Assembly: GCF_000003605.2 (NCBI RefSeq)
Contig: NW_003113202.1
Location: 7,501-54,313, forward strand
Length of the DNA: 46,813 nt
Source: Saccoglossus kowalevskii
Lineage: Eukaryota > Hemichordata > Enteropneusta > Harrimaniidae
Direction: 5' to 3'
In this document: piece by piece, positions 1 to 46,813 of the stretch
How positions within the stretch are numbered: position 1 is the first letter of the stretch
Layout of the letters: each line of letters opens with the position of its first letter
Translations under genes and position numbers: made by a program
Notes under the pieces: model-generated
Told to the model about the DNA's origin: nothing
The model's input: only the letters and a program-made list of their open reading frames with translations
The model's database searches: none

Positions 1-60
1 GATTTGAACCCGAGACCTCTCGCACCCAAAGCGAGAATCATACCCCTAGACCAACGAGCC
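1..60 (-). tRNA. tRNA-Pro: tRNA-Pro (TGG), partial at left edge
   Basis: Gene 5' part and anticodon present; the last 12 nt (3' acceptor strand and C73) lie outside the window. The visible part equals the TGG consensus. L spacer upstream. Confidence 0.93.
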
Positions 61-446
61 GATTCTAACTAATGAGTTAAGAAAAATTAAAAAAAATCTG
101 TTTTGTTCAGTTTTGCGACTCAATTGACAAGTTTTAAAATAGTATTTAGCAAATCTTTATACAATTCCATTTCAGGGTAATAATTCAGTAAACGAAATCA
201 AAAACTGATCTTTAAATTTCGAGTAAACTAACAGCCAAAGCGAGTGACTATATTTGTGATTTACTACCTTGCACTGCAGGGAATTCTCCATTTCATTGCC
301 ATGATTGTCTACTTGTTGGCACATTCCGATGTGCTCGCAAAATCCCCGGTCAGTATAATTGTGAGAATTTCTATTTTTGATTTTCTGTCGAATTTCATAA
401 CTTGAATTGAAATGCAGGCATCATAATGCAATATGTTAAAAAATAT

Positions 447-518
447 GGGCTCGTCCGGGAGTTGAACGCGGGACCTTTCGCATCCTAAGCGAGAATCATA
501 CCCTTAGACCAACGAGCC
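447..518 (-). tRNA. tRNA-Pro: tRNA-Pro (AGG), variant
   Basis: Anticodon AGG with A37 instead of G37, A15, a T-stem change at 52 and a C27-A43 mismatch. S1 spacer upstream. Matches the gene at 32128 in A37 and A15. Confidence 0.8.
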
Positions 519-520
519 AG

Positions 521-543
521 ACATACATTCAACAAACGTATGT
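521..543 (-). promoter_or_regulatory. Inverted repeat just upstream of an AGG gene (S1 spacer)
   Basis: ACATAC (521-526) and GTATGT (538-543) are exact reverse complements around an 11 bp centre, starting 2 bp from the 5' end of the tRNA. Present in S1 spacers and broken in S2, where the right arm reads GTATGG. Confidence 0.35.
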
Positions 544-560
544 ATAGGTCGGAAAATAAT

Positions 561-569
561 TTATAAATA
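561..569 (-). promoter_or_regulatory. TATA-like element upstream of AGG tRNA genes
   Basis: TTATAAATA lies about 43-51 bp upstream of the tRNA 5' end and is kept in nearly all S spacers (15230 and 22510 are altered). Upstream TATA-like elements aid TFIIIB placement on some tRNA genes; its role here is inferred from position and conservation. Confidence 0.4.
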
Positions 570-646
570 TCTCTTTTCTAAAAGTGTTCAAAGGTTGCCT
601 TATTGATGCAAGTCGAATCTTCAGCAGCCATTTTTCTAACTTTGGT

Positions 647-650
647 AAAA
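647..650 (-). terminator. Pol III terminator, S-side type (T4)
   Basis: GGTAAAATTAT on the plus strand gives TTTT about 5 bases after the 3' end of the TGG gene at 655-726. Four T is the minimum usually effective in animals, so TGG genes with an S spacer downstream may terminate less tightly than others. Confidence 0.75.
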
Positions 651-654
651 TTAT

Positions 655-726
655 GGGCTCGTCCGGGATTTGAAGCCGAGACCTCTCGCACCCAAAGCGA
701 GAATCATACCCCTAGACCAACGAGCC
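655..726 (-). tRNA. tRNA-Pro: tRNA-Pro (TGG), 53C
   Basis: Consensus except G53 to C, which breaks 53-61 and an almost invariant B-box base. Founder-type copy of the 53C group. S spacer downstream. Confidence 0.83.
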
Positions 727-950
727 GATTTTGACTAATTAGTTAGGAGAGAAATTAAAAAAAATCAGTTTTATTCAGTTTTGCGACTCAATTGACAAGT
801 TTTAAAACAGTATTTAGCAAATCTTTATACAATTCCATTTCAGGGTAATGATTCAGTAAACGAAATCAAAAACTCATCTTTAAACTTTCGAGAAAACTAA
901 CAGCCAAAGCGAGTGACCATATTTGTGATTTACTGCCATGCACTGCAGGG

Positions 951-1038
951 AATTCTCCATTTCATTGCCATTATTGTCTTCTTGTTGGCACATTCCGATG
1001 TGGTCGCAAAATCCCCGGTCAGTATAATTGTGAGAATT
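951..1038 (-). other. Conserved inverted-repeat core of the L spacer
   Basis: Outer arms AATTCTC (951-957) and GAGAATT (1032-1038) are complementary. Inside, CACAT (989-993) and ATGTG (998-1002) flank a TCCG tetraloop-like centre. The block looks less variable than the spacer around it across distant copies. It matches no snRNA, 5S or snoRNA that I recognise. It could be a small structured RNA, a protein-binding palindrome, or conservation by array homogenisation only. Confidence 0.3.
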
Positions 1039-1107
1039 TCTATTATTGTTTTTTCTGTCGATTTCATAACTTTGAATTGAAATGCAGGCATCATAATGCA
1101 ATATGTT

Positions 1108-1113
1108 AAAAAA
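1108..1113 (-). terminator. Pol III terminator, L-side type (T6)
   Basis: Six A on the plus strand read as T6 a few bases after the 3' end of the gene at 1117-1188. This is the usual form where an L spacer lies downstream; copies range from four to seven T. Copies at 33914 and 37507 are cut to T4, and the one at 20590 is lost. Confidence 0.85.
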
Positions 1114-1116
1114 TGT

Positions 1117-1188
1117 GGGCTCGTCCGGGATTTGAACCCGAGACCTCTCGCACCCAAAGCGAGAATCATACCCCTAGACCAACGAGCC
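1117..1188 (-). tRNA. tRNA-Pro: tRNA-Pro (TGG)
   Basis: Exact TGG consensus with intact A and B boxes and a T6 terminator. L spacers on both sides. Confidence 0.97.
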
Positions 1189-1577
1189 GATTTTGACTAA
1201 TAAGTTAGGAGAGAAATTAAAAAAAATCAGTTTTATTCAGTTTTGCGACTCAATTGACAAGTTTTAAAACAGTATTTAGCAAATCTTTATACAATTCCAT
1301 TTCAGGGTAATGATTCAGTAAACGAAATCAAAAACTCATCTTTAAACTTTCGAGAAAACTAACAGCCAAAGCGAGTGACCATATTTGTGATTTACTGCCT
1401 TGCACTGCAGGGAATTCTCCATTTCATTGCCATTATTGTCTACTTGTTGGCACATTCCGATGTGGTCACAAAATCCCCGGTCAGTATAATTGTGAGAATT
1501 TCTATTTTTGTTTTTCTGTCGAATTTCATAACTTGAATTGAAATGCAGGCATCATAATGCAATATGTTAAAAAATGT

Positions 1578-1649
1578 GGGCTCGTCCGGGATTTGAACCC
1601 GAGACCTCTCGCACCCAAAGCGAGAATCATACGCCTAGACCAACGAGCC
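1578..1649 (-). tRNA. tRNA-Pro: tRNA-Pro (TGG), D-loop variant
   Basis: One departure, a G to C in the D-loop G run (about position 18), shared with 10855. All stems pair. Confidence 0.9.
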
Positions 1650-2035
1650 GATTCTGCCTAATGAGTTAAGAAAAATTAAAAAAAAACTGTTTTGTTCAGT
1701 TTTGCGACTCAATTGACAAGTTTTAAAATAGTATTTAGCAAATCTTTACACAATTCCATTTCAGGGTAATGATTAAGTAAACGAAATCAAAAACTGATCA
1801 TTAAATTTCGAGTAAACTAACAGCCAAAGCGAGTGACTATATTTGTGATTTACTGCCTTGCACTGCAGGGAATTCTCCATTTCATTGCCATGATTGTCTA
1901 CTTGTTGGCACATTCCGATGTGGTCGCAAAATCCCCGGTCAGTATAATTGTGAGAATTTCTATTATTGTTTTTCTGTCGAATTTCATAACTTGAATTGAA
2001 ATGCAGGCATCATAATGAAATATGTTAAAAAATAT

Positions 2036-2107
2036 GGGCTCGTCCGGGAGTTGAATCCAGGACCTCTCGCACCCTAAGCGAGAATCATGCCCTTAGACCA
2101 ACGAGCC
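2036..2107 (-). tRNA. tRNA-Pro: tRNA-Pro (AGG), variant
   Basis: A53 and T50 in the T stem and A15 in the D loop; the B box is weakened. S1 spacer upstream. Confidence 0.8.
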
Positions 2108-2243
2108 AGACATACATTCAACAAACGTATGTATAGGTCGGAAAATAATTTATAAATATCTCTTTTCTAAAAGTGTTCAAAGGTTGCCTTATTGATGCAA
2201 GTCGAATCTTCAGCAGCCATTTTTCTAACTTTGGTAAAATTAT

Positions 2244-2315
2244 GGGCTCGTCCGGGATTTGAAGCCGAGACCTCTCGCACCCAAAGCGAGAATCATACCC
2301 CTAGACCAACGAGCC
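2244..2315 (-). tRNA. tRNA-Pro: tRNA-Pro (TGG), 53C
   Basis: Only change is G53 to C. S spacer downstream; its L spacer carries the rare GTCCACTTG also seen near 33325. Confidence 0.83.
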
Positions 2316-2704
2316 GATTTTGACTAATAAGTTAGGAGAGAAATTAAAAAAAATCAGTTTTATTCAGTTTTGCGACTCAATTGACAAGTTTTAAAACAGT
2401 ATTTAGCAAATCTTTATACAATTCCATTTCAGGGTAATGATTCAGTAAACGAAATCAAAAACTCATCTTTAAACTTTCGAGAAAACTAACAGCCAAAGCG
2501 AGTGACCATATTTGTGATTTACTGCCTTGCACTGCAGGGAATTCTCCATTTCATTGCCATTATTGTCCACTTGTTGGCACATTCCGATGTGGTCACAAAA
2601 TCCCCGGTCAGTATAATTGTGAGAATTTCTATTATTGTTTTTCTGTCGAATTTCATAACTTGAATTGAAATGCAGGCATCATAATGCAATATGTTAAAAA
2701 ATGT

Positions 2705-2776
2705 GGGCTCGTCCGGGATTTGAACCCAAGACCTCTCGCACCCAAAGCGAGAATCATACCCCTAGACCAACGAGCC
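2705..2776 (-). tRNA. tRNA-Pro: tRNA-Pro (TGG)
   Basis: Single change T50, still able to pair with G64 by wobble. Confidence 0.93.
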
Positions 2777-3162
2777 GATTCTAACTAATGAGTTAAGAAA
2801 AATTAAAAAAAATCTGTTTTGTTCAGTTTTGCGACTCAATTGACAAGTTTTAAAATAGTATTTAGCAAATCTTTATACAATTCCATTTCAGGGTAATGAT
2901 TCAGTAAACGAAATCAAAAACTGATCTTTAAATTTCGAGTAAACTAACAGCCAAAGCGAGTGACTATATTTGTGATTTACTGCCTTGCACTGCAGGGAAT
3001 TCTCCATTTCATTGCCATGATTGTCTACTTGTTGGCACATTCCGATGTGGTCGCAAAATCCCCGGTCAGTATAATTGTGAGAATTTCTATTTTTGTTTTT
3101 CTGTCGAATTTCATAACTTGAATTGAAATGCAGGCATCATAATGCAATATGTTAAAAAATAT

Positions 3163-3234
3163 GGGCTCGTCCGGGAGTTGAACCCGGGACCTCTCGCATC
3201 TTAAGCGAGAATCATGCCCTTAGACCAACGAGCC
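3163..3234 (-). tRNA. tRNA-Pro body with anticodon AAG
   Basis: Anticodon loop reads TTAAGAT: AAG at 34-36 with A37, so it would be scored as Leu (CUU) by anticodon. The body is AGG-type proline with A15. S1 spacer upstream. May be a dead or identity-switched copy. Confidence 0.82.
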
Positions 3235-3369
3235 AGACATACATTCAACAAACGTATGTATTGGTCGGAAAATAATTTATAAATATCTCTTTTCTAAAAG
3301 TGTTCAAAGGTTGCCTTATTGATGCAAGTCGAATCTTCAGCAGCCATTTTTTAACTTTGGTAAAATTAT

Positions 3370-3441
3370 GGGCTCGTCCGGGATTTGAAGCCGAGACCTC
3401 TCGCACCCAAAGCGAGAATCATACCCCTAGACCAACGAGCC
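3370..3441 (-). tRNA. tRNA-Pro: tRNA-Pro (TGG), 53C
   Basis: G53 to C only. Its L spacer starts as haplotype L1 and switches to L2 part-way, marking a conversion tract; shares CAGATTTGCG with the spacer after 32336. Confidence 0.83.
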
Positions 3442-3829
3442 GATTTTGACTAATAAGTTAGGAGAGAAATTAAAAAAAATCAGTTTTATTCAGATTTGCG
3501 ACTCAATTGACAAGTTTTAAAACAGTATTTAGCAAATCTTTATACAATTCCATTTCAGGGTAATGATTCAGTAAACGAAATCAAAAACTGATCTTTAAAT
3601 TTCGAGTAAACTAACAGCCAAAGCGAGTGACTATATTTGTGATTTACTGCCTTGCACTGCAGGGAATTCTCCATTTCATTGCCATGATTGTCTACTTGTT
3701 GGCACATTCCGATGTGGTCGCAAAATCCCCGGTCTGTATAATTGTGAGAATTTCTATTTTTGTTTTTCTGTCGAATTTCATAACTTGAATTGAAATGCAG
3801 GCATCATAATGCAATATGTTAAAAAATAT

Positions 3830-3901
3830 GGGCTCGTCTGGGAGTTGAACCCGGGACCTCTCGCACCCTAAGCGAGAATCATGCCCCTAGACCAACGAGC
3901 C
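3830..3901 (-). tRNA. tRNA-Pro: tRNA-Pro (AGG)
   Basis: Single change A64, mispaired with C50 in the T stem. S1 spacer upstream. Confidence 0.9.
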
Positions 3902-4037
3902 AGACATACATTCAACAAACGTATGTATAGGTCGGAAAATAATTTATAAATATCTCTTTTCTAAAAGTGTTCAAAGGTTGCCTTATTGATGCAAGTCGAA
4001 TCTTCAGCAGCCATTATTCTAACTTTGGTAAAATTAT

Positions 4038-4109
4038 GGGCTCGTCCGGGATTTGAAGCCGAGACCTCTCGCACCCAAAGCGAGAATCATACCCCTAGAC
4101 CAACGAGCC
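4038..4109 (-). tRNA. tRNA-Pro: tRNA-Pro (TGG), 53C
   Basis: G53 to C only; first gene of the 1128 bp higher-order repeat. Confidence 0.83.
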
Positions 4110-4498
4110 GATTTTGACTAATAAGTTAGGAGAGAAATTAAAAAAAATCAGTTTTATTCAGTTTTGCGACTCAATTGACAAGTTTTAAAACAGTATTTAG
4201 CAAATCTTTATACAATTCCATTTCAGGGTAATGATTCAGTAAACGAAATCAAAAACTCATCTTTAAACTTTCGAGAAAACTAACAGCCAAAGCGAGTGAC
4301 CATATTTGTGATTTACTGCCTTGCACTGCAGGGAATTCTCCATTTCATTGCCATTATTGTCTACTTGTTGGCACATTCCGATATGGTCGCAAAATCCCCG
4401 GTCAGTATAATTGTGAGAATTTCTATTATTGTTTTTCTGTCGAATTTCATAACTTGAATTGAAATGCAGGCATAATAATGCAATATGTTAAAAAAAGT

Positions 4499-4570
4499 GG
4501 GCTCGTCCGGGATTTGAACCCGAGACCTCTCGCACCCAAAGCGAGAATCATACCCCTAGACCAACGAGCC
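4499..4570 (-). tRNA. tRNA-Pro: tRNA-Pro (TGG)
   Basis: Exact consensus; second gene of the 1128 bp repeat. The downstream flank is the AAAAAAGTG variant. Confidence 0.97.
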
Positions 4571-4959
4571 GATTCTGACTATTGAGTTAGGAGAAAAATT
4601 AAAAAAAATCAGTTTTATTCAGTTTTGCGACTCAATTGACAAGTTTTAAAACAGTATTTAGCAAATCTTTATACAATTCCATTTCAGGGTAATGATTCAG
4701 TAAACGAAATCAAAAACTCATCTTTAAACTTTCGAGAAAACTAACAGCCAAAGCGAGTGACCATATTTGTGATTTACTGCCTTGCACTGCAGGGAATTCT
4801 CCATTTCATTGCCATTATTGTCTACTTGTTGGCACATTCCGATGTGGTCGCAAAATCCCCGGTCAGTATAATTGTGAGAATTTCTATTATTGTTTTTCTG
4901 TCGAATTTCATAACTTGAATTGAAATGCAGGCATCATAATGCAATATGTTAAAAAATAT

Positions 4960-5029
4960 GGGCTCGACCGGGAGTTGAACCCGGGACCTCTCGCACCCTA
5001 GCGAGAATCATGCCCCTAGGCCACGAGCC
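4960..5029 (-). pseudogene. tRNA-Pro (AGG) pseudogene, 70 nt
   Basis: Anticodon loop is one base short (TAGGGT, six bases) and the D-arm/5' side has lost another base. T66 also mispairs. Duplicated at 6088. Confidence 0.85.
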
Positions 5030-5165
5030 AGACATACATTCAAGAAACGTATGTATAGGTCGGAAAATAATTTATAAATATCTCTTTTCTAAAAGTGTTC
5101 AAAGGTTGCCTTATTGATGCAAGTCGAATCTTCAGCAGCCATTATTCTAACTTTGGTAAAATTAT

Positions 5166-5237
5166 GGGCTCGTCCGGGATTTGAAGCCGAGACCTCTCGC
5201 ACCCAAAGCGAGAATCATACCCCTAGACCAACGAGCC
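5166..5237 (-). tRNA. tRNA-Pro: tRNA-Pro (TGG), 53C
   Basis: Second-copy counterpart of 4038, G53 to C only. Confidence 0.83.
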
Positions 5238-5626
5238 GATTTTGACTAATAAGTTAGGAGAGAAATTAAAAAAAATCAGTTTTATTCAGTTTTGCGACTC
5301 AATTGACAAGTTTTAAAACAGTATTTAGCAAATCTTTATACAATTCCATTTCAGGGTAATGATTCAGTAAACGAAATCAAAAACTCATCTTTAAACTTTC
5401 GAGAAAACTAACAGCCAAAGCGAGTGACCATATTTGTGATTTACTGCCTTGCACTGCAGGGAATTCTCCATTTCATTGCCATTATTGTCTACTTGTTGGC
5501 ACATTCCGATATGGTCGCAAAATCCCCGGTCAGTATAATTGTGAGAATTTCTATTATTGTTTTTCTGTCGAATTTCATAACTTGAATTGAAATGCAGGCA
5601 TAATAATGCAATATGTTAAAAAAAGT

Positions 5627-5698
5627 GGGCTCGTCAGGGATTTGAACCCGAGACCTCTCGCACCCAAAGCGAGAATCATACCCCTAGACCAACGAGCC
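5627..5698 (-). tRNA. tRNA-Pro: tRNA-Pro (TGG)
   Basis: T64 mispairs with C50; otherwise consensus. Counterpart of 4499. Confidence 0.9.
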
Positions 5699-6087
5699 GA
5701 TTCTGACTATTGAGTTAGGAGAAAAATTAAAAAAAATCAGTTTTATTCAGTTTTGCGACTCAATTGACAAGTTTTAAAACAGTATTTAGCAAATCGTTAT
5801 ACAATTCCATTTCAGGGTAATGATTCAGTAAACGAAATCAAAAACTCATCTTTAAACTTTCGAGAAAACTAACAGCCAAAGCGAGTGACCATATTTGTGA
5901 TTTACTGCCTTGCACTGCAGGGAATTCTCCATTTCATTGCCATTATTGTCTACTTGTTGGCACATTCCGATGTGGTCGCAAAATCCCCGGTCAGTATAAT
6001 TGTGAGAATTTCTATTATTGTTTTTCTGTCGAATTTCATAACTTGAATTGAAATGCAGGCATCATAATGCAATATGTTAAAAAATAT

Positions 6088-6157
6088 GGGCTCGACCGGG
6101 AGTTGAACCCGGGACCTCTCGCACCCTAGCGAGAATCATGCCCCTAGGCAACGAGCC
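6088..6157 (-). pseudogene. tRNA-Pro (AGG) pseudogene, 70 nt
   Basis: Same shortened anticodon loop and T66 as 4960, with its own 5' side loss (CTAGGCAACG on the plus strand). Confidence 0.85.
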
Positions 6158-6293
6158 AGACATACATTCAAGAAACGTATGTATAGGTCGGAAAATAATT
6201 TATAAATATCTCTTTTCTAAAAGTGTTCAAAGGTTGCCTTATTGATGCAAGTCGAATCTTCAGCAGCCATTTTTCTAACTTTGGCAAAATTAT

Positions 6294-6365
6294 GGGCTCG
6301 TCCGGGATTTGAACCCGAGACCTCTCGCACCCAAAGCGAGAATCATACCCCTAGACCAACGAGCC
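6294..6365 (-). tRNA. tRNA-Pro: tRNA-Pro (TGG)
   Basis: Exact consensus. S spacer downstream with TTGGCAAAATT, a variant shared with the one before 23277. Confidence 0.97.
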
Positions 6366-6754
6366 GATTCTGACTATTGAGTTTGGAGAAAAATTTAAAA
6401 AAATCAGTTTTATTCAGTTTTGCGACTCAATTGACAAGTTTTAAAACAGTATTTAGCAAATCTTTATACAATTCCATTTCAGGGTAATGATTCAGTAAAC
6501 GAAATCAAAAACTCATCTTTAAACTTTCGAGAAAACTAACAGCCAAAGCGAGTGACTATATTTGTGATTTACTGCCTTGCACTGCAGGGAATTCTCCATT
6601 TCATTGCCATGATTGTCTACTTGTTGGCACATTCCGATGTGGTCGCAAAATCCCCGGTCAGTATAATTGTGAGAATTTCTATTATTGTTTTTCTGTCGAA
6701 TTTCATAACTTGAATTGAAATGCAGGCATAATAATGCAATATGTTAAAAAAAGT

Positions 6755-6826
6755 GGGCTCGTCCGGGATTTGAACCCGAGACCTCTCGCACCCAAAGCGA
6801 GAATCATACCCCTAGACCAACGAGCC
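6755..6826 (-). tRNA. tRNA-Pro: tRNA-Pro (TGG)
   Basis: Exact consensus between two L spacers. Confidence 0.97.
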
Positions 6827-7215
6827 GATTCCGACTATTGAGTTAGGAGAAAAATTAAAAAAAATCAGTTTTATTCAGTTTTGCGACTCAATTGACAAGT
6901 TTTAAAACAGTATTTAGCAAATCTTTACACAATTCCATTTCAGGGTAATGATTCAGTAAACGAAATCAAAAACTCATCTTTAAACTTTCGAGAAAACTAA
7001 CAGCCAAAGCGAGTGACCATATTTGTGATTTACTGCCTTGCACTGCAGGGAATTCTCCATTTCATTGCCATTATTGTCTACTTGTTGGCACATTCCGATG
7101 TGGTCGCAAAATCCCCGGTCAGTATAATTGTGAGAATTTATATTATTGTTTTTCTGTCGAATTTCATATCTTGAATTGAAATGCAGGCATCATAATGCAA
7201 TATGTTAAAAAATGT

Positions 7216-7287
7216 GGACCCGTCCGGGATTTGAACCCGAGACCTCTCGCACCCAAAGCGAGAATCATAACCCTAGACCAACGAGCC
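7216..7287 (-). tRNA. tRNA-Pro: tRNA-Pro (TGG) with S spacer upstream
   Basis: One of five TGG genes with an S1 spacer upstream. The 3' acceptor strand is changed so that T4-G69 and G2-T71 become wobble pairs. G19 to T removes an A-box base. Confidence 0.85.
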
Positions 7288-7423
7288 AGACATACATTCA
7301 ACAAACGTATGTATAGGTCGGAAAATAATTTATAAATATCTCTTTTCTAAAAGTGTTCAAAGGTTGCCTTATTGATGCAAGTCGAAACTTCAGCAGCCAT
7401 TTTTCTAACTTTGGTAAAATTAT

Positions 7424-7495
7424 GGGCTCGTCCGGGATTTGAACCCGAGACCTCTCGCACCCAAAGCGAGAATCATACCCCTAGACCAACGAGCC
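7424..7495 (-). tRNA. tRNA-Pro: tRNA-Pro (TGG)
   Basis: Exact consensus; S spacer downstream. Confidence 0.97.
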
Positions 7496-7884
7496 GATTC
7501 TGACTAATGAGTTAGGAGAGAAATTAAAAAAAATCAGTTTTATTCAGTTTTGCGACTCAATTGACAAGTTTTAAAACAGTATTTAGCAAATCTTTATACA
7601 ATTCCATTTCAGGGTAATGATTCAGTAAACGAAATCAAAAACTCATCTTTAAACTTTCGAGAAAACTAACAGCCAAAGCGAGTGACCATATTTGTGATTT
7701 ACTGCCTTGCACTGCAGGGAATTCTCCATTTCATTGCCATTATTGTCTACTTGTTGGCACATTCCGATATGGTCGCAAAATCCCCGGTCAGTATAATTGT
7801 GAGAATTTCTATTATTGTTTTTCTGTCGAATTTCATAACTTGAATTGAAATGCAGGCATAATAATGCAATATGTTAAAAAAAGT

Positions 7885-7956
7885 GGGCTCGTCCGGGATT
7901 TGAACCCGAGACCTCTCGCACCCAAAGCGAGAATCATACCCCTAGACCAACGAGCC
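7885..7956 (-). tRNA. tRNA-Pro: tRNA-Pro (TGG)
   Basis: Exact consensus between L spacers. Confidence 0.97.
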
Positions 7957-8345
7957 GATTCTGACTATTGAGTTAGGAGAGAAATTAAAAAAAATCAGTT
8001 TTATTCAGTTTTGCGACTCAATTGACAAGTTTTAAAACAGTATTTAGCAAATCTTTATACAATTCCATTTCAGGGTAATGATTCAGTAAACGAAATCAAA
8101 AAGTCATCTTTAAACTTTCGAGAAAACTAACAGCCATAGCGAATGACCATATTTGTGATTTACTGCCTTGCACTGCAGGGAATTCTCCATTTCATTGCCA
8201 TTATTGTCTTCTTGTTGGCACATTCCGATGTGGTCGCAAAATCCCCGGTCAGTATAATTGTGAGAATTTCTATTATTGTTTTTCTGTCGAATTTCATAAC
8301 TTGAATTGAAATGCAGGCATAATAATGCAATATGTTAAAAAAAGT

Positions 8346-8417
8346 GGGCTCTTCCGGGATTTGAACCCGAGACCTCTCGCACCCAATGCGAGAATCATAC
8401 CCCTAGACCAACGAGCC
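8346..8417 (-). tRNA. tRNA-Pro: tRNA-Pro (TGG), variant
   Basis: A67 breaks 6-67 in the acceptor stem; A32 in the anticodon loop. Confidence 0.87.
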
Positions 8418-8806
8418 GATTCTGACTATTGAGTTAGGAGAAAAATTAAAAAAAATCAGTTTTATTCAGTTTTGCGACTCAATTGACAAGTTTTAAAACA
8501 GTATTTAGCAAATCTTTATACAATTCCATTTCAGGGTAATGATTCAGTAAACGAAATCAAAAACTCATCTTTAAACTTTGGAGAAAACTAACAGCCAAAG
8601 CGAGTGACCATATTTGTGATTTACTGCCTTGCACTGCAGGGAATTCTCCATTTCATTGCCATTATTGTGTACTTGTTGGCACATTCCGATGTGGTCGCAA
8701 AATCCCCGGTCAGTATAATTGTGAGAATTTCTATTATTGTTTTTCTGTCGAATTTCATAACTTGAATTGAAATGCAGGCATCATAATGCAATATGTTAAA
8801 AAATGT

Positions 8807-15786: not shown

Positions 15787-15858
15787 GGGCTCGTCCGGGA
15801 GTTGAACCCGGGACCTCTCGCACCCTAAGCGAGAATCATGCCCCTAGACCAACGAGCC
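15787..15858 (-). tRNA. tRNA-Pro: tRNA-Pro (AGG)
   Basis: Exact AGG consensus; T5 terminator in AAAAATTACC. S2 spacer upstream. Confidence 0.97.
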
Positions 15859-18992: not shown

Positions 18993-19129
18993 AGACATAC
19001 ATTCAACAAACGTATGGATTGTCGGAAAATAATTTATAAATATCTCTTTTCTAAAAGTGTTCAAAGGTTGCCTTATTGATGCAAGTCGAATCTTCAGCAG
19101 CCATTTTTCTAAGTTTGGTAAAATTATGG

Positions 19130-19267
19130 CTACTTGTTGGCACATTCCGATGTGGTTGCAAAATCCCCGGTCAGTATAATTGTGAGAATTTCTATTATTG
19201 TTTTTTTGTCGAATTTCATAACTTGAATTGAAATGAAGGCATCATAATGCAATATGTTAAAAATTAT
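19130..19267 (-). repeat. Truncated L spacer fused to an S spacer
   Basis: At 19129/19130 an S spacer runs straight into the inner part of an L spacer at CTACTTGTTGG. The TGG tRNA expected there and about 250 bp of L spacer, roughly 320 bp in all, are missing. This is the only place where two S units are consecutive. Confidence 0.88.
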
Positions 19268-38181: not shown

Positions 38182-38253
38182 GGGCTCGTCCGGGATTTGA
38201 ACCCGCGACCTCTCGCACCCAAAGCGAGAATCATACCCTTATACCAACGAGCC
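38182..38253 (-). tRNA. tRNA-Pro: tRNA-Pro (TGG), weakened
   Basis: G49, A12 and A15. Confidence 0.78.
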
Positions 38254-38641
38254 GATTCTGACTAATGAGTTAGGAGAGAAATTTTAAAAAATCAGTTTTA
38301 TTAGTTTTGCGACTCAATTGACAAGTTTTAAAATAGTATTTAGCAAATCATTATACAATTCCATTTCAGGGTAATGATTCAGTAAACGAAATCAAAAACT
38401 CATCTTTAAACTTTCGAGTAAACTAACAACCAAAGCGAGTGACCATATTTGTGATTTACTGCCTTGCACTGCAGGGAATTCTCCATTTCATTGCCATGAT
38501 TGTCTACTTGTTGGCACATTCCGATGTGGTCGCAAAATCCACGGTCAGTATAATTGTGAGAATTTCTATTTTTGTTTTTCTGTCGAATTTCATAACTTGA
38601 ATTGAAATGCAGGCATCATAATGCAATATGTTAAAAACTAT

Positions 38642-38713
38642 GGGCTCGTCCGAGTGTTGAACCCGGGACCACTCGCACTTTAAGCGAGAATCATGCACCT
38701 AGACCAACGCGCC
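38642..38713 (-). tRNA. tRNA-Pro body with anticodon AAA
   Basis: Loop TTAAAGT gives AAA (codon UUU). T62 wobble, A60, G4 opposite A69, and a D-loop change. Confidence 0.78.
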
Positions 38714-38848
38714 AGACATACATTCAACAAGCGTATGGATTGTCGGAAAATAATTTATAAATATCTCTTTTCTAAAAGAGTTCAAAGGTTGCCTTATTGA
38801 TGCAAGTCGAATCTTCAGCAGCCATTTTTCTAAGTTTGGTAAAATTAG

Positions 38849-38920
38849 GGGCTCGTCCGGGATTTGAAACCGAGACCTCTAGCACCCAAAGCGAGAATCA
38901 TACCCTTATACCAACGAGCC
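38849..38920 (-). tRNA. tRNA-Pro: tRNA-Pro (TGG), weakened
   Basis: T53, T41, A12 and A15; duplicate of 28246 (offset 10603). Confidence 0.73.
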
Positions 38921-39308
38921 GATTCTGACTAATGAGTTAGGAGAGAAATTTTAAAAAATCAGTTTTATTAGTTTTGCGACTCAATTGACAAGTTTTAAAA
39001 TAGTATTTAGCAAATCATTATACAATTCCATTTCAGGGTAATGATTCAGTAAACGAAATCAAAAACTCATCTTTAAACTTTCGAGTAAACTAACAACCAA
39101 AGCGAGTGACCATATTTGTGATTTACTGCCTTGCACTGCAGGGAATTCTCCATTTCATTGCCATGATTGTCTACTTGTTGGCACATTCCGATGTGGTCGC
39201 AAAATCCCCGGTCAGTATAATTGTGAGAATTTCTATTTTTGTTTTTCTGTCGAATTTCATAACTTGAATTGAAATGCAGGCATCATAATGCAGTATGTTA
39301 AAAAATAT

Positions 39309-39380
39309 GGGCTCGTCCGGGAGTTGAACCCGGGACCTCTCGCACCCTAAGCGAGAATCATGCCCCTAGACCAACGAGCC
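39309..39380 (-). tRNA. tRNA-Pro: tRNA-Pro (AGG)
   Basis: Exact AGG consensus; S2 spacer upstream. Confidence 0.97.
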
Positions 39381-39515
39381 AGACATACGCTCCACAAACG
39401 TATGGATTGTCGGAAAATAATTTATAAATATCTCTTTTCTAAAAGTGTGCAAAGGTTGCCTTATTGATGCAAGTCGAATCTTCAGCAGCCATTTTTCTAA
39501 GTTTGGTAAAATTAT

Positions 39516-39587
39516 GGGCTCGTCCGGGATTTGAACCCGCGAACTCTCACACCCAAAGCGAGAATCATACCCTTATACCAACGAGCC
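39516..39587 (-). tRNA. tRNA-Pro: tRNA-Pro (TGG), weakened
   Basis: G49, T40 wobble with G30, A12 and A15. Confidence 0.75.
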
Positions 39588-39976
39588 GATTCTGACTAAT
39601 GAGTTAGGAGAGAAATAACAAAAAATCAGTTCTATTCAGTTTTGCGACTCAATTGACAAGTTTTAAAATAGTATTTAGCAAATCTTTATACAATTCCATT
39701 TCAGGGTAATGATTCAGTAAACAAAATTAAAAACTCATCTTTAAACTTTCGAGAAAACTAACAGCCACAGCGAGTGACCATATTTGTGATTTACTGCCTT
39801 GCACTGCAGGGAATTCCCCATTTCATTGCCATTATTGTCTACTTGTTGGCACATTCCGATGTGGTCGCAAAATGCCCGGTCAGTATAATTGTGAGAATTT
39901 CTATTTTTGTTTTTCTGTCGAATTTCATAACTTGAATTGAAATGCAGGCATCATAATACAGTATGTTAAAAAATAT

Positions 39977-40048
39977 GGGCTCGTCCGGGAGTTGAACCCG
40001 GGACCTCTCGCACCCTAAGCGAGAATCATGCCCGTAGACCAACGAGCC
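39977..40048 (-). tRNA. tRNA-Pro: tRNA-Pro (AGG), C15
   Basis: Single D-loop change of G15 to C; would disturb the 15-48 tertiary pair. Confidence 0.9.
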
Positions 40049-40183
40049 AGACACACGCTCCACAAACGTATGGATTGTCGGAAAATAATTTATAAATATC
40101 TCTTTTCTAAAAGTGTGCAAAGGTTGCCTTATTGATGCAAGTCGAATCTTCAGCAGCCATTTTTCTAAGTTTGGTAAAATTAT

Positions 40184-40255
40184 GGGCTCGTCCGGGATTT
40201 GAACCCGCGACCTCTCGCACCCAAAGCGAGAATCATACCCTTATACCAACGAGCC
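40184..40255 (-). tRNA. tRNA-Pro: tRNA-Pro (TGG), weakened
   Basis: G49, A12 and A15. Confidence 0.78.
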
Positions 40256-40643
40256 GATTCTGACTAATGAGTTAGGAGAGAAATTTTAAAAAATCAGTTT
40301 TATTAGTTTTGCGACTCAATTGACAAGTTTTAAAATAGTATTTAGCAAATCATTATACAATTCCATTTCAGGGTAATGATTCAGTAAACGAAATTAAAAA
40401 CTCATCTTTAAACTTTCGAGTAAACTAACAGCCAAAGCGAGTGACCATATTTGTGATTTACTGCCTTGCACTGCAGGGAATTCTCCATTTCATTGCCATT
40501 ATTGTCTACTTGTTGGCACATTCCGATGTGGTCGCAAAATCACCGGTCAGTATAATTGTGAAAATTTCTATTATTGTTTTTCTGTCGAATTTCATAACTT
40601 GAATTGAAATGCAGGCATCATAATGCAATAAGTTAAAAAATGT

Positions 40644-40715
40644 GGGCTCGTCCGAGTGTTGAACCCGTGACCACTCGCACTTTAAGCGAGAATCATGCCC
40701 CTAGACCAACGAGCC
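40644..40715 (-). tRNA. tRNA-Pro body with anticodon AAA
   Basis: AAA at 34-36; A49-G65 mismatch, T62 wobble, A60. Acceptor stem, D arm and anticodon stem are intact, so it is one of the better-formed AAA copies. Confidence 0.83.
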
Positions 40716-40850
40716 AGACATACATTCAACAAACGTATGGATTGTCGGAAAATAATTTATAAATATCTCTTTTCTAAAAGTGTTCAAAGGTTGCCTTATT
40801 GATGCAAGTCGAATCTTCAGCAGCCATATTTCTAAGTTTGGTAAAATTAT

Positions 40851-40922
40851 GGGCTCGTCCGGGATTTGACCCCGAGACTTCTCGCACCCAAAGCGAGAAT
40901 CATACCCCTAGACCAACGAACC
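40851..40922 (-). tRNA. tRNA-Pro: tRNA-Pro (TGG), 54G
   Basis: G54 in place of T54, T3 wobble and a variable-loop change; opens the 1335 bp repeat. Confidence 0.8.
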
Positions 40923-41311
40923 GATTCTGACTAATGAGTTAGGAGAGAAATTTAAAAAAATAAGTTTTATTCAGTTTTGCGACTCAATTGACAAGTTTTA
41001 AAATAGTATTTAGCAAATCATTATACAATTCCATTTCAGGGTAATGATTCAGTAAACGAAATTAAAAACTCATCTTTAAACTTTCGAGTAAACTAACAGC
41101 CAAAGCGAGTGACCATATTTGTGATTTACTGCCTTGCACTGCAGGGAATTCTCCATTTCATTGCCATTATTGTCTACTTGTTGGCACATTCCGATGTGGT
41201 CGCAAAATCACCGGTCAGTATAATTGTGAAAATTTCTATTATTGTTTTTCTGTCGAATTTCATAACTTGAATTGAAATGCAGGCATCATAATGCAATAAG
41301 TTAAAAAGTGT

Positions 41312-41383
41312 GGGCTCGTCCGGGTGTTGAACCCGGGACCACTCGCACTTTAAGCGAGAATCAAGCACCTAGACCAACGCGCC
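41312..41383 (-). tRNA. tRNA-Pro body with anticodon AAA
   Basis: AAA with a fully paired T stem (C49, normal 61-65) and A60. G4-A69 mismatch and two D-arm changes. Confidence 0.8.
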
Positions 41384-41518
41384 AGACATACATTCAACAA
41401 ACGTATGGATTGTCGGAAAATAATTTATAAATATCTCTTTTCTAAAAGTGTGTAAACGTTGCCTTATTGATGCAAGTCGAATCTTCAGCAGCCATTTTTC
41501 TAAGTTTGGTAAAATTAT

Positions 41519-41590
41519 GGGCTCGTCCGGTATTTTAACCCGAGACCTCTCGCACCCAAAGCGAGAATCATACCCCTAGACCAACGAGCC
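41519..41590 (-). tRNA. tRNA-Pro: tRNA-Pro (TGG), broken B box
   Basis: A61 and A56 remove the 53-61 pair and the invariant C56. Pol III promotion is probably lost. Confidence 0.75.
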
Positions 41591-41978
41591 GATTCTGACT
41601 AATGAGTTAGAAGAGAAATTAAAAAAAAATCAGTTTTATTCAGTTTTGCGACTCTATTGACAAGTTTTAAAATAGTATTTAGAAATATTTATACAATTCC
41701 ATTTCAGTATAATGATTCAGTAAACGAAATCAAAAACTGATCTTTAAATTTCGAGTAAACTAACATCCAAAGCGAGTGACTATATTTGTGATTTACTGCC
41801 TTGCACTGCAGGGGATTCTCCATTTCATTGCCATGATTGTCTACTTGTTGGCACATTCCGATGTGGTCGCAAAATCCCCGGTCAGTATAATTGTGAGAAT
41901 TTCTATTTTTGTTTTTCTGTCGAATTTCATAACTTGAATTGAAATGCAGGCATCATAATGCAATATGTTAAAAACTTT

Positions 41979-42050
41979 GGGCTCGTCCGGGAGTTTAACC
42001 CGGGACCTCTCGCACCCTAAGCGAGAATCATGCCCCTAGACCAACGAGCC
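41979..42050 (-). tRNA. tRNA-Pro: tRNA-Pro (AGG), A56
   Basis: C56 to A in the T loop/B box only. Confidence 0.84.
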
Positions 42051-42185
42051 AGACATACATTTAACAAACGTATGGATTGTCGGAAAATAATTTATAAATA
42101 TCTCTTTTCTAAAAGTGTTCAAAGGTTGCCTTATTGATGCAAGTCGAATCTTCAGCAGCCATATTTCTAAGTTTGGTAAAATTAT

Positions 42186-42257
42186 GGGCTCGTCCGGGAT
42201 TTGACCCCGAGAATTCTCGCACCCAAAGCGAGAATCATACCCCTAGACCAACGAGCC
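42186..42257 (-). tRNA. tRNA-Pro: tRNA-Pro (TGG), 54G
   Basis: G54 and variable-loop changes; second-copy counterpart of 40851. Confidence 0.8.
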
Positions 42258-42646
42258 GATTCTGACTAATGAGTTAGGAGAGAAATTTAAAAAAATAAGT
42301 TTTATTCAGTTTTGCGACTCAATTGACAAGTTTTAAAATAGTATTTAGCAAATCATTATACAATTCCATTTCAGGGTAATGATTCAGTAAACGAAATTAA
42401 AAACTCATCTTTAAACTTTCGAGTAAACTAACAGCCAAAGCGAGTGACCATATTTGTGATTTACTGCCTTGCACTGCAGGGAATTCTCCATTTCATTGCC
42501 ATTATTGTCTACTTGTTGGCACATTCCGATGTGGTCGCAAAATCACCGGTCAGTATAATTGTGAAAATTTCTATTATTGTTTTTCTGTCGAATTTCATAA
42601 CTTGAATTGAAATGCAGGCATCATAATGCAATAAGTTAAAAAATGT

Positions 42647-42718
42647 GGGCTCGTCCGAGTGTTGAACCCGTGACCACTCGCACTTTAAGCGAGAATCATG
42701 CACCTAGACCAACGCGCC
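42647..42718 (-). tRNA. tRNA-Pro body with anticodon AAA
   Basis: AAA with A49, T62, A60, G4 and a D-loop change: combines marks of 38642 and 40644. Confidence 0.77.
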
Positions 42719-42853
42719 AGACATACATTCAACAAACGCATGGATTGTCGGAAAATAATTTATAAATATCTCTTTTCTAAAAGTGTGTAAACGTTGCCTT
42801 ATTGATGCAAGTCGAATCTTCAGCAGCCATTTTTCTAAGTTTGGTAAAATTAT

Positions 42854-42925
42854 GGGCTCGTCCGGTATTTTAACCCGAGACCTCTCGCACCCAAAGCGAG
42901 AATCATACCCCTAGACCAACGAGCC
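42854..42925 (-). tRNA. tRNA-Pro: tRNA-Pro (TGG), broken B box
   Basis: A61 and A56, duplicate of 41519. Confidence 0.75.
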
Positions 42926-43313
42926 GATTCTGACTAATGAGTTAGAAGAGAAATTAAAAAAAAAACAGTTTTATTCAGTTTTGCGACTCAATTGACAAGT
43001 TTTAAAATAGTATTTAGAAATATTTATACAATTCCATTTCAGTATAATGATTCAGTAAACGAAATCAAAAACTGATCTTTAAATTTCGAGTAAACTAACA
43101 TCCAAAGCGAGTGACTATATTTGTGATTTACTGCCTTGCACTGCAGGGAATTCTCCATTTCATTGCCATGATTGTCTACTTGTTGGCACATTCCGATGTG
43201 GTCGCAAAATCCCCGGTCAGTATAATTGTGAGAATTTCTATTTTTGTTTTTCTGTCGAATTTCATAACTTGAATTGAAATGCAGGCATCATAATGCAATA
43301 TGTTAAAAACTAT

Positions 43314-43385
43314 GGGCTCGTCCGGGAGTTTAACCCGTGACCTCTCGCACCCTAAGCGAGATTCATGCCCCTAGACCAACGAGCC
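43314..43385 (-). tRNA. tRNA-Pro: tRNA-Pro (AGG), A56
   Basis: C56 to A, A49 and A26; counterpart of 41979. Confidence 0.8.
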
Positions 43386-43520
43386 AGACATACATTCAAC
43401 AAACATATGGATTGTCGGAAAATAATTTATAAATATCTCTTTTCTAAAAGTGTTCAAAGGTTGCCTTATTGATGCAAGTCGAATCTTCAGCAGCCATATT
43501 TCTAAGTTTGGTAAAATTAT

Positions 43521-43592
43521 GGGCTCGACCGGGATTTGACCCCGAGACTTCTCGCACCCAAAGCGAGAATCATACCCCTAGACCAACGAGCC
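43521..43592 (-). tRNA. tRNA-Pro: tRNA-Pro (TGG), 54G
   Basis: G54, and T66 opposite T7; start of an incomplete third 1335 bp copy. Confidence 0.79.
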
Positions 43593-43981
43593 GATTCTGA
43601 CTAATGAGTTAGGAGAGAAATTTAAAAAAATAAGTTTTATTCAGTTTTGCGACTCAATTGACAAGTTTTAAAATAGTATTTAGCAAATCATTATACAATT
43701 CCATTTCAGGGTAATGATTCAGTAAACGAAATTAAAAACTCATCTTTAAACTTTCGAGTAAACTAACAGCCAAAGCGAGTGACCATATTTGTGATTTACT
43801 GCCTTGCACTGCAGGGAATTCTCCATTTCATTGCCATGATTGTCTACTTGTTGGCACATTCCGATGTGGTCGCAAAATCCCCGGTCAGTATAATTGCGAG
43901 AATTTTTATTATTGATTTTCTGTCGAATTTCATAACTTGAATTGAAATGCATGCATCATAAAGCAATATGTTAAAAAATGT

Positions 43982-44053
43982 GGGCTCGTCTGGGATTTGA
44001 AACCGAGACCTCTCGCACCCAAAGCGAGAATTATACCCCTAGACCAACGAGCC
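43982..44053 (-). tRNA. tRNA-Pro: tRNA-Pro (TGG), 53T/A23 group
   Basis: A64, T53 and A23, identical in type to 29369; the flank also shares CATAAAGCAATATG. Confidence 0.79.
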
Positions 44054-44441
44054 GATTCTGACTAATGAGTTAGGAGAAAAATTAAAAAAAATCAGTTTTA
44101 TTCAGTTTTGCGACTCAATTGACAAGTTTTAAAATAGTATTTAGCAAATCTTTATACAATTCCATTTCAGGGTAATGATTCAGTAAACGAAATCAAAAAC
44201 TGATCTTTAAATTTCGAGTAAACTAACAGCCAAAGCGAGTGACTACATTTGTGATTTACTGCCTTGCACTGCTGGGAATTCTCCATTTCATTGCCATGAT
44301 TGTCGACTTGTTGGCACATTCCGATGTGGTCGCAAAATCCCCGGTCAGTATAATTGTGAGAATTTCTATTATTGTTTTTCTGTCGAATTTCATAACTTGA
44401 ATTGAAATGCAGGCATCATAATGCAATATGTTAAAAAATGT

Positions 44442-44513
44442 GGGCTCGTCTGGGATTTGAACCCGAGACCTCTCGCACCCAAAGCGAGAATCATAACCCT
44501 AGACCAACGAGCC
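44442..44513 (-). tRNA. tRNA-Pro: tRNA-Pro (TGG), T19
   Basis: A64 and T19 as in the TGG-with-S group, but with an L spacer upstream. Confidence 0.83.
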
Positions 44514-44870
44514 GATTCTGACTAATGAGTTAGGAGAAAAATTAAAAACAAATCAGTTTTATTCAGTTTTGCGACTCAATTGGCAAGTTTTAAAATAGTA
44601 TTTAGCAAATCTTTATACAATTCCATTTCAGGGTAATGATTCAGTAAACGAAATCAAAAACTGATCTTTAAATTTCGAGTAAACTAACAGCCAAAGCGAG
44701 TGACTATATTTGTGATTTACAGCCTTGTACTGCAGGGAATTCTCCATTTCATTGCCATGATTGTCTACTTGTTGGCACATTCCGATGTGGTCGCAAAATC
44801 CCCGGTCAGTATAATTGTGAGAATTTCTATTTTTGTTTTTCTGTCGAATTTCATAACTTGAATTGAAATG
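44514..44870 (-). repeat. L spacer truncated at its right end
   Basis: Runs normally to GAATTGAAATG, then joins the middle of an AGG tRNA. The terminator-bearing last 32 bp of the spacer and the first 26 bp of the tRNA window sequence are deleted together (58 bp). Confidence 0.85.
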
Positions 44871-44916
44871 ACCTCTCGCACCCTAAGCGAGAATCATGCC
44901 CCTAGACCAACGAGCA
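44871..44916 (-). pseudogene. Truncated tRNA-Pro (AGG)
   Basis: Only the 5' 46 nt remain (acceptor 5' strand, D arm, anticodon arm). The T arm, 3' acceptor strand and terminator are deleted. T1 as well. Confidence 0.88.
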
Positions 44917-45051
44917 GGACATACATGCAACAAACGTATGGATTGTCGGAAAATAATTTATAAATATCTCTTTTCTAATAGTGTGCAAAGGTTGCCTTAT
45001 TGATGCAAGTCGAATCTTCAGCAGCCATTTTTCTAAGTTTGGTAAAATTAT

Positions 45052-45123
45052 GGGCTCGTCCGGGATTTGAACCCGAGACCTCTTGCACCCAAAGCGAGAA
45101 TCATACCCCTAGACCGACGAGCC
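45052..45123 (-). tRNA. tRNA-Pro: tRNA-Pro (TGG), variant
   Basis: A41 opposite C29 and C8 in place of U8. Confidence 0.82.
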
Positions 45124-45511
45124 GATTCTGACTAATGAGTTAGGAGAGAAATTAAAAAAATCAGTTTTATTCAGTTTTGCGACTCAATTGACAAGTTTTA
45201 AAACAGTATTTAGCAAATCTTTATACAATTCCATTTCAGGGTAATGATTCAGTAAACGAAATCAAAAACTCATCTTTAAACTTTCGAGTAAACTAACAGC
45301 CAAGGCGAGTGACCATATTTGTGATTTACTGCCTTGCACTGCAGGGAATTCTCCATTTCATTGCCATTATTGTCTACTTGTTGGCACATTCCGATGTGGT
45401 CGCAAAATCCCCAGTCAGTATAATTGTGAGAATTTCTATTATTGTTTTTCTGTCGAATTTCATAACTTGAATTGAAATGCAGGCATAATAATGCAATATG
45501 TTAAAAAAAGT

Positions 45512-45583
45512 GGGCTCGTCCGGGATTTGAACCCGAGACCTCTCGCACCCAAAGCGAAAATCATACCCCTAGACCAACGAGCC
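45512..45583 (-). tRNA. tRNA-Pro: tRNA-Pro (TGG)
   Basis: Only T27 (wobble with G43). The upstream flank is unusual (AATGCTG). Confidence 0.93.
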
Positions 45584-45972
45584 AATGCTGACTATTGAGT
45601 TAGGAGAAAAATTTAAAAAAATCAGTTTTATTCAGATTTGCGACTCAATTGACAAGTTTTAAAACAGTATTTAGCAAATCTTTATACAATTCCATTTCAG
45701 GGTAATGATTCAGTAAACGAAATCAAAAACTAATCTTTAAACTTTCGAGAAAACTAACAGCAAAAGCGAGTGACTATATTTGTGATTTACTACCTTGCAC
45801 TGCAGGGAATTCTCCATTTCATTGCCATTATTGTCTACTTGTTGGCATATTCCGATGTGGTCGCAAAATCCCCGGTCAGTATAATTGTGATAATTTCTAT
45901 TATTGTTTTTCTGTCGAATTTCATAACTTGAATTGAAATGCAGGCATCATAATGCAATATGTTAAAAAATGA

Positions 45973-46044
45973 GGGCTCGTCCGGGATTTGAACCCGAGAC
46001 CTCTCGCTCCCAAAGCGAGAATCATACCCCTAGACCAACGAGCC
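45973..46044 (-). tRNA. tRNA-Pro: tRNA-Pro (TGG), A38
   Basis: Only A38 in the anticodon loop; its T6 terminator is present. Confidence 0.92.
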
Positions 46045-46429
46045 GATTCTGACTAATGAGTTAGGAGAAAAATTAAAAAAAATCAGTTTTATTCAGTTTT
46101 GCGACTCAATTGACAAGTTTTAAAATGGTATTTAGCAAATCTTTATACAATTCCATTTCAGGGTAATGATTCAGTAAACGAAATCAAAAACTGATCTTTA
46201 AATTTCGAGTAAACTAACAGACATAGTTAGTGACCATATTTGTGATTTACTGCCTTGCACTGCAGGGAATACTCCATTTCATTGCCATGATTGTCTACTT
46301 GTTGGCACATTCCGATGTGGTCGCAAAATCCCCGGTCAGTATAATTGTGAGAATTTCTATTTTTGTTTTTGTGTCGAATTTCATAACTTGAATTGAAATG
46401 CAGGCATCATAATGCAATATGTTAAAAAA

Positions 46430-46497
46430 TCGTCCGGGAGATGAACCCGGGACCTCTCGCACCCTGAGCGAGAATCATGCCCCTAGACCAACGAGCC
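46430..46497 (-). pseudogene. tRNA-Pro (AGG) lacking its 3' end
   Basis: A 7 bp deletion removes the last acceptor bases and C73, joining the T-run directly to the stem. C33 replaces the invariant U33. Confidence 0.85.
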
Positions 46498-46632
46498 AGA
46501 CATACTTGCAACAAACGTATGGATTGTCGGAAAATAATTTATAAATATCTCTTTTCTAAAAGTGTGCAAAGGTTGCCTTATTGATGCAAGTCGAATCTTC
46601 AGCAGCCATTTTTCTAAGTTTGGTAAAATTAT

Positions 46633-46704
46633 GGGCTCGTCCGGGATTTGAACCCGAGAGGTCTCGCACCCAAAGCGAGAATCATACCCCTAGACCAACG
46701 AGCC
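46633..46704 (-). tRNA. tRNA-Pro: tRNA-Pro (TGG)
   Basis: Two variable-loop changes (GG to CC); stems and boxes otherwise intact. Confidence 0.92.
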
Positions 46705-46813
46705 GATTCTGACTAATGAGTTAGGAGAGAAATTAAATAAAAATCAGTTTTATTCAGTTTTGCGACTCAATTGACAATTTTTAAAATAGTATTTAGCAAA
46801 TCTTTATCAATCC
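46705..46813 (-). repeat. L spacer, cut by the right window edge
   Basis: First 109 bp of an L spacer upstream of the last TGG gene. It shows the array continuing beyond the window. Confidence 0.85.

Follow-up and report, generated by a model that had tools for sequence, protein, structure and literature searches.

The window, the whole stretch of 46.8 kb (46,813 nt) that was analysed, covers positions 7501-54313 of a 54,313-bp contig. It is a tandem array of tRNA-Pro-derived loci (1..46813, minus strand), reading towards lower coordinates, as determined with BLASTn, ARAGORN and Rfam. BLASTn with two tRNAs from the window identified 128 loci that do not overlap and that all lie on the minus strand. 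This is the same count and the single direction given in the original prediction. ARAGORN made 125 tRNA calls. The gathering score of Rfam RF00005 was reached by 99 matches in the window, with 29 of the 128 loci falling below it. Identity of the loci to a consensus ranged from 84.7 to 100%, so a chance origin is not an issue.

Two unit types of approximately 461 bp and 668 bp were found, with the orders UGG-long spacer and UGG-short spacer-AGG-long spacer, respectively. An example of the one-gene unit (727..1188, minus strand, 462 bp) contains a UGG gene at 1117-1188 and a long spacer at 727-1116. An example of the two-gene unit (61..726, minus strand) contains a UGG gene at 655-726, a short spacer at 519-654, an AGG gene at 447-518 and a long spacer at 61-446. 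The 127 spacers comprised a long class (79 spacers, 381-391 bp), a short class (46 spacers, 134-138 bp) and two deletion forms of 331 and 275 bp. The 275 bp form derives from the long spacer and is located at 18993..19267 on the minus strand. No genes other than tRNA genes and no ORFs of at least 100 amino acids were found in the window. Rfam at a lax threshold returned, besides tRNA, only matches at chance level in positions 1-3000. The predicted lack of unique sequence between the loci was thus borne out. In comparison with tRNA-derived SINEs, the copies in the window are arranged head to tail with fixed spacers. The right end of the window is the contig end and the opposite end of the contig is array again, so neither array end was reached, as predicted. 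A second contig is likewise array at both ends.

Mean identity between long spacers was 0.965 at distances below 2 kb and 0.954-0.961 farther apart. On average they were about 0.96 alike, with a best match of 0.987, and the copies are highly similar in this looser sense. A 3.9-kb stretch matched itself at 98% when shifted by 1130 bp, representing a longer local duplication. The tRNA bodies deviated by 2.6-4.4% from the consensus of their own class. The difference of about 4% between spacers indicates that the array is not a simple assembly duplicate.

Intact and damaged copies

The following counts are based on 127 copies, as the 128th locus is cut by the window edge. Seventeen of the 127 copies matched the UGG consensus exactly, for example that at 1117..1188, and five matched the AGG consensus exactly, for example that at 15787..15858 (both minus strand). 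Of 125 copies, 44 retained the full set of 20 stem pairs together with a UGG, AGG or CGG anticodon and the GGTTC at the start of the B box. At least one stem pair was broken in 74/125. Two 70-nt copies were dropped from the stem, anticodon and GGTTC count and a deletion copy was included, read past its break. A run of at least four T was found within 25 nt downstream of 119/127 copies, compared to 1560 of 5000 random spacer stretches. Cloverleaf, B box and terminator are features of a subset, and part of the loci in the window have changed A or B boxes.

The 125 ARAGORN calls were Pro (113), Phe (4), Leu (2), His (2), Thr (2) and undetermined (2). The 12 non-Pro calls are Pro bodies with an altered or shortened anticodon loop. 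The array is therefore made only of proline tRNA genes by descent, as originally proposed, but not by call. Four Phe-type copies with an AAA anticodon (38642-38713, 40644-40715, 41312-41383 and 42647-42718; ARAGORN, BLASTn) lie within 38642..42718 on the minus strand, with other Pro copies interleaved. They carry further changes and occupy the position usual for AGG genes. A truncated copy was located at 44870..44915 (minus strand); it has lost its 3' third to a deletion that extends into the spacer.

Substitution patterns

In the Pro array 78 of 132 substitutions were in stems compared to 79.6 expected. Of these 78, 20 preserved pairing, hardly more than the 16.2 expected. The expected stem numbers are approximate, as they use a mutation spectrum from 120 of the 127 copies (those with odd neighbours or length were dropped) and estimated spacer base shares. 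No constraint was seen on single Pro copies, since stem substitutions were about as expected in both place and pairing. Private substitutions were twice as frequent in Pro tRNA bodies (80/8640) as in spacers (151/36163).

Two stretches of Cys arrays from the same genome were also profiled. For the two halves of the gene, singletons per site amounted to 0.47 and 0.36 in C4368 (flank bins 0.15-0.40), and 0.14 and 0.19 in C926 (flank bins 0.10-0.45). The evidence for faster mutation of tRNA bodies comes from the Pro array only, and the effect was not clearly seen in the Cys arrays. In both Cys stretches the bodies were 0.013-0.050 off consensus, compared to 0.048-0.082 in most flank bins, which counts against a lack of constraint. 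The Arg and Trp profiles comprised only 9 and 10 copies. This type of profile was not used for the Pro genes because flank classes are mixed in it.

Other arrays in the genome and its source

Single-isotype arrays of Thr-UGU, Arg-UCG, Cys-GCA and Trp-CCA were found in the same 572-Mb genome. Together with Pro, arrays of five isotypes were present on 10 contigs, which range from 10 to 122 kb, as seen among 63 scored of 25,204 first-look candidates. The 122 kb Thr-UGU contig was array in all six stretches read and at both ends. In the Thr, Arg and Trp stretches that were scanned, Rfam matched tRNA 48 times, with scores of 37.6-74.9 bits. One tRNA-Arg gene was solitary in its 3-kb stretch, so tRNA may have sources besides the arrays. 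The single-isotype array that had been called unusual is real but is not special to proline. The window is an example of an unusual genome layout that is not tied to this amino acid.

On a mitochondrial contig with a bilaterian order, 12 of the 13 protein genes usual in animals were found along with two rRNAs and 22 kinds of tRNA, which supports the animal source assumed in the original prediction. The genes nad5 and cob are adjacent, cox1 is inverted, nad1 or nad2 is transposed, AAA is used, AGG is absent and tRNA-Lys has the anticodon UUU. Gene order and code features match the Saccoglossus mitochondrial type described in excerpts of two sources (PMC3121625, PMC2697986) and point to a Saccoglossus-like acorn worm (Hemichordata), as judged from the sequence. 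Hydractinia, which has similar arrays, was rejected as the source because its mitochondria differ in having one tRNA-Met and one tRNA-Trp (PMC11067881, in part). Lancelets were also weighed as a source; no match to the GFP family was obtained, a result that carries no information by itself. In the Asymmetron mitochondrion, according to part of a published account, cox3 and nad3 have moved away from atp6, which is not the case here.

Discussion

The organisation of tRNA genes in arrays is already known from Entamoeba, Hydractinia and Nematostella. The sources are cited here for the parts available. Tandem tRNA arrays occur in Hydractinia symbiolongicarpus, H. echinata and Nematostella (PMC11067881). 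These belong to another phylum; the present genome has arrays of five isotypes so far, many damaged copies and an array in which two Pro isoacceptors occur together. Entamoeba also has tandem tRNA arrays, attributed to concerted evolution (PMC2652664). The arrays of E. histolytica take up more than 10% of its genome and fall into 25 unit types of no more than five tRNA genes each; most copies are uniform and short tandem repeats lie between the genes (PMC2652664). In the stretches of the present genome that were read, each array has a single isotype, and damaged copies are numerous. The 128 loci on one strand with two spacer classes form head-to-tail units with similar spacers of the Entamoeba and Hydractinia kind, which upholds the claim of a tandem tRNA array. 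Most tDNAs are clustered in zebrafish, stickleback and Nematostella, with clusters of at least 50 in Nematostella and teleosts (PMC2888827). The clusters of Nematostella and zebrafish are mostly heterogeneous pairs (PMC2888827), whereas the present array is homogeneous. Arabidopsis has tandem tRNA gene repeats of Ser-Tyr-Tyr (PMC12308677) and Cys (PMC10701932), but only a few such clusters in a mostly dispersed tRNA set, and its Ser-Tyr-Tyr cluster is silent in most tissues (PMC12308677). A likeness to tRNA-Pro of Schistosoma was also considered and rejected, as the parts of the literature available describe tRNA-Pro-CGG pseudogenes and no tandem tRNA array. No report of hemichordate tRNA arrays of this kind was found in the literature searched.

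The window is probably a tandem multi-copy tRNA-Pro family with UGG and AGG isoacceptors, one of several single-isotype arrays in a Saccoglossus-like acorn worm. Growth of the array and similarity of its copies may be maintained by unequal crossing-over and gene conversion, as in rDNA. With their internal A and B boxes, the intact copies at a minimum would be transcribed by Pol III. Selection may act on the pool of copies, which would carry the function, rather than on single ones, and it is proposed that damaged copies accumulate for this reason.

The array could instead be a tRNA-derived satellite: a former tRNA cluster that has become a silent repeat, with the working tRNA-Pro genes elsewhere. 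The high share of copies with a broken stem pair, the private substitutions concentrated in tRNA bodies and the silencing of the Arabidopsis cluster are in keeping with this. The lack of visible purifying selection on single copies agrees with this part of the original prediction, but the 44 intact-looking copies do not. Exact consensus copies and terminators persist, the scanned Thr, Arg and Trp stretches contain high-scoring genes, and most flank bins of the Cys genes lie further from consensus than the tRNA bodies do. A silent satellite is considered rather unlikely.

It is very unlikely that the main role of the array is to form a chromatin boundary or structural element by binding TFIIIC densely. 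One tandem repeat of human tRNA has been described as a candidate boundary element (PMC4041453, in part) and 128 tRNA loci in 46.8 kb are dense, although the A or B box is altered in some of them. Because array sequence forms both ends of the Pro and Thr contigs, any genes flanking the arrays lie out of view. These contigs start and stop inside arrays like repeats in draft assemblies, as would a short cluster falsely expanded during assembly, but such an artefact is highly improbable given the distinct copies, the five isotypes on 10 contigs and similar Hydractinia arrays argued to be real (PMC11067881, in part). A proline-specific expansion feeding proline-rich secreted proteins, as originally suggested, has the array length and nothing else in its favour and is scarcely credible beside the Thr, Arg, Cys and Trp arrays.

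The multi-copy family described here extends large-scale tandem tRNA organisation from amoebae and cnidarians to an apparent hemichordate. It offers more than 100 distinguishable copies in a single genome, on which the selection, homogenisation and mutation of tRNA genes can be measured. A broader proposal, which we regard as doubtful, is that most tRNA genes of this animal lie in long single-isotype satellites with the array as the functional unit, in which single copies decay freely, transcription itself speeds mutation of tRNA bodies relative to the spacers and recombination continually restores a minority of good copies. If true, mutation associated with Pol III would be naturally recorded in the many copies of these arrays.

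Structure and extent of the proline array

The window consists of head-to-tail tRNA-Pro-derived genes, all on the minus strand. A blastn search with two of the window's tRNAs as queries gave 128 loci, the number and single direction of the original prediction. ARAGORN predicted 125 tRNA genes and the Rfam tRNA model gave 99 matches at or above gathering score. No ORF of at least 100 amino acids was present in the window. Two unit types were found, both on the minus strand. In the two-gene unit a UGG gene is separated from an AGG gene by a short spacer (~135 bp), and a long spacer (~389 bp) follows. The one-gene unit contains a UGG gene and the long spacer alone. The 127 spacers were classed as long (79), short (46) and deletion forms (2). 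Genes following a short spacer (n = 46) carried AGG (30), TGG (5), AAA (4), ATG (2), AAG (2) or GGG (1), or were of odd length (2). Genes flanked by a long and a short spacer (n = 45) carried TGG (43) or TGT (2).

The assembly has 572,110,611 bases in 4830 contigs, and the window occupies positions 7501-54313 of its contig, C712 (54,313 bp). The end of C712 beyond the window is also array, with seven ARAGORN tRNAs. A second stretch of the same type was found on contig C3200 (17,135 bp), with 35 ARAGORN tRNAs in its readable parts and a best match to the window of 6.5 kb at 96% (cut-off 95%). No array end was found on C712 or C3200, in agreement with the prediction that neither end had been reached.

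Condition of the proline genes

The view that the array holds only proline genes was correct for the tRNA bodies but not for every call. Twelve of 125 ARAGORN calls were of another isotype or none, all arising because the anticodon loop is altered in proline bodies. Exact UGG and AGG consensus sequences were present in 17 and 5 of 127 complete loci, respectively. Stem pairs were counted in the 125 loci in the 72-nt register; all 20 were present in 51, and 44 of the loci combined them with GGTTC as the first B-box bases and an anticodon of UGG, AGG or CGG. T-run terminators, of at least four T within 25 nt downstream, were found at 119 of 127 loci compared to 1560 of 5000 stretches drawn at random within spacers.

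Four AAA-anticodon copies with further changes in common lie at 38642-42718 of the window, and three more AAA copies at 1676, 4347 and 7016 of L007, a part of C3200. This variant seems to be spreading as a subfamily.

Substitution and proposed homogenization

Divergence from the class consensus was 2.6-4.4% in tRNA bodies, 2.0-2.5% in long spacers and 3.2% in short spacers. Stems held 78 of 132 distinct tRNA-body substitutions (79.6 expected) and 20 of these 78 kept the pair (16.2 expected), the expected counts resting on an approximate spacer mutation spectrum. In tests treating copies as independent although they are kin by duplication, one-copy-only substitutions affected 80 of 8640 body bases compared to 151 of 36163 spacer bases (odds ratio 2.2, p = 3.5e-8). 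By site class, the body excess was present at A/T sites (27/3354 vs 77/24430, p = 1e-4), weak at non-CpG G/C sites (38/3846 vs 62/10147, p = 0.024) and absent at CpG sites (15/1440 vs 12/1508, p = 0.56). With stem substitutions at or near expectation and a one-copy excess in bodies, these comparisons gave no sign of purifying selection on single proline copies. Proline tRNA bodies possibly mutate faster than spacers, by tests that ignore this kinship. The body excess was not clear in arrays of other isotypes, and in two Cys stretches tRNA bodies were nearer consensus than most of their flanks.

Long-spacer identity was 0.965 for pairs less than 2 kb apart and 0.954-0.961 beyond, with a mean of 0.987 for the best-matching partner of each spacer. 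A 3.9-kb stretch matched itself at 98% at an offset of 1130 bp. These identities and the self-match fit repeated unequal exchange across the array. The same data also speak against simple duplication in assembly.

Arrays of other isotypes

The Rfam tRNA model gave 25,204 first-look candidates over the genome, of which 63 were scored, lower-scoring proline copies falling outside the 63. Sixty-two were on contigs found to carry single-isotype arrays. The other was an Arg gene on C3484, alone in a 3-kb stretch partly reading N. Arrays were of Arg-UCG (C237, 36.6 kb; C1937, 51.2 kb; C3006, 16.3 kb), Cys-GCA (C926, 28.9 kb; C4368, 28.2 kb; C682, 10.0 kb), Trp-CCA (C4826, 15.0 kb) and Thr-UGU (C4103, 121.9 kb); sizes are of whole contigs, which were sampled in parts. 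The six stretches read from C4103, the two ends of the contig among them, were all array, with one unit covering 0.99-1.00 and 63 of 65 ARAGORN tRNAs called Thr. Scans of stretches from the Trp, Arg and Thr arrays gave 48 tRNA matches of 37.6-74.9 bits. As in the proline array, single copies with altered anticodons were called as other isotypes. The proline array therefore belongs to a set, in which its contig is not the longest. It is single-isotype as predicted, but proline is not special.

A recurrent open frame of ~100 amino acids was seen in Thr-array spacers (six listed in stretch L043, 12 of 100-127 amino acids in L044) and may be chance within a repeat. L043 also contained tRNA-like fragments within short tandem duplications. 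Arg copies with a UCA anticodon, called SeC by ARAGORN, were found on C237 (L010, 384-456; L021, 2074-2146); from their anticodon they would read UGA stops if expressed. In the Cys arrays (L036-L039) a recurrent variant with two bases missing ahead of the anticodon, which lies at position 31, was interspersed with the full form.

Mitochondrial contig

The mitochondrial contig, C4830 (17,037 bp), was located via COX1. The genes run atp6-cox3-nad3-nad4L-nad4-nad5-cob-nad6(minus)-small rRNA-large rRNA-nad2-nad1-cox1(minus)-cox2. Pfam confirmed the 12 protein genes, and Rfam confirmed the two rRNAs. No atp8 was identified on C4830. ARAGORN in mitochondrial mode made 26 calls representing 22 kinds of tRNA. 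TGA encodes Trp, and in the 11 genes counted AAA occurred 50 times and AGG 0 times. Relative to Balanoglossus, S. kowalevskii mitochondria are reported to have COX1 inverted and ND1 or ND2 transposed, with AAA as Lys, AGG absent and a UUU tRNA-Lys (PMC3121625). Adjoining nd5 and cob are reported in both genera (PMC2697986). C4830 resembles Saccoglossus by order and code in its adjoining nad5-cob, minus-strand cox1, use of AAA and absence of AGG. The animal is probably Saccoglossus or something closely related. Tandem repeats at both ends (L046, ~1-640; L047, ~6290-7037) probably mark the point at which the circle was opened, within a repetitive control region.

Proposed function of the array

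Tandem tRNA arrays as such are already known. They are reported for all 20 amino acids in Hydractinia, and also in Nematostella (PMC11067881), and 25 types of array unit are described in Entamoeba histolytica (PMC2652664). In a survey of 74 genomes, clustered tDNAs reached 89% in Nematostella, 65% in zebrafish and 87% in stickleback (PMC2888827). No paper on hemichordate tRNA arrays was among the matches listed, most subscription journals being outside the literature searched.

The chief rival explanation is a silent satellite, a tRNA-derived array without transcription. Most likely the array supplies tRNA-Pro from many gene copies, much as rDNA supplies rRNA. The array structure, the T-run terminators and the sister arrays were observed directly. 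Pol III would transcribe the intact minority of copies, whose number would provide dosage, and recombination would maintain array size and keep the copies alike over time.
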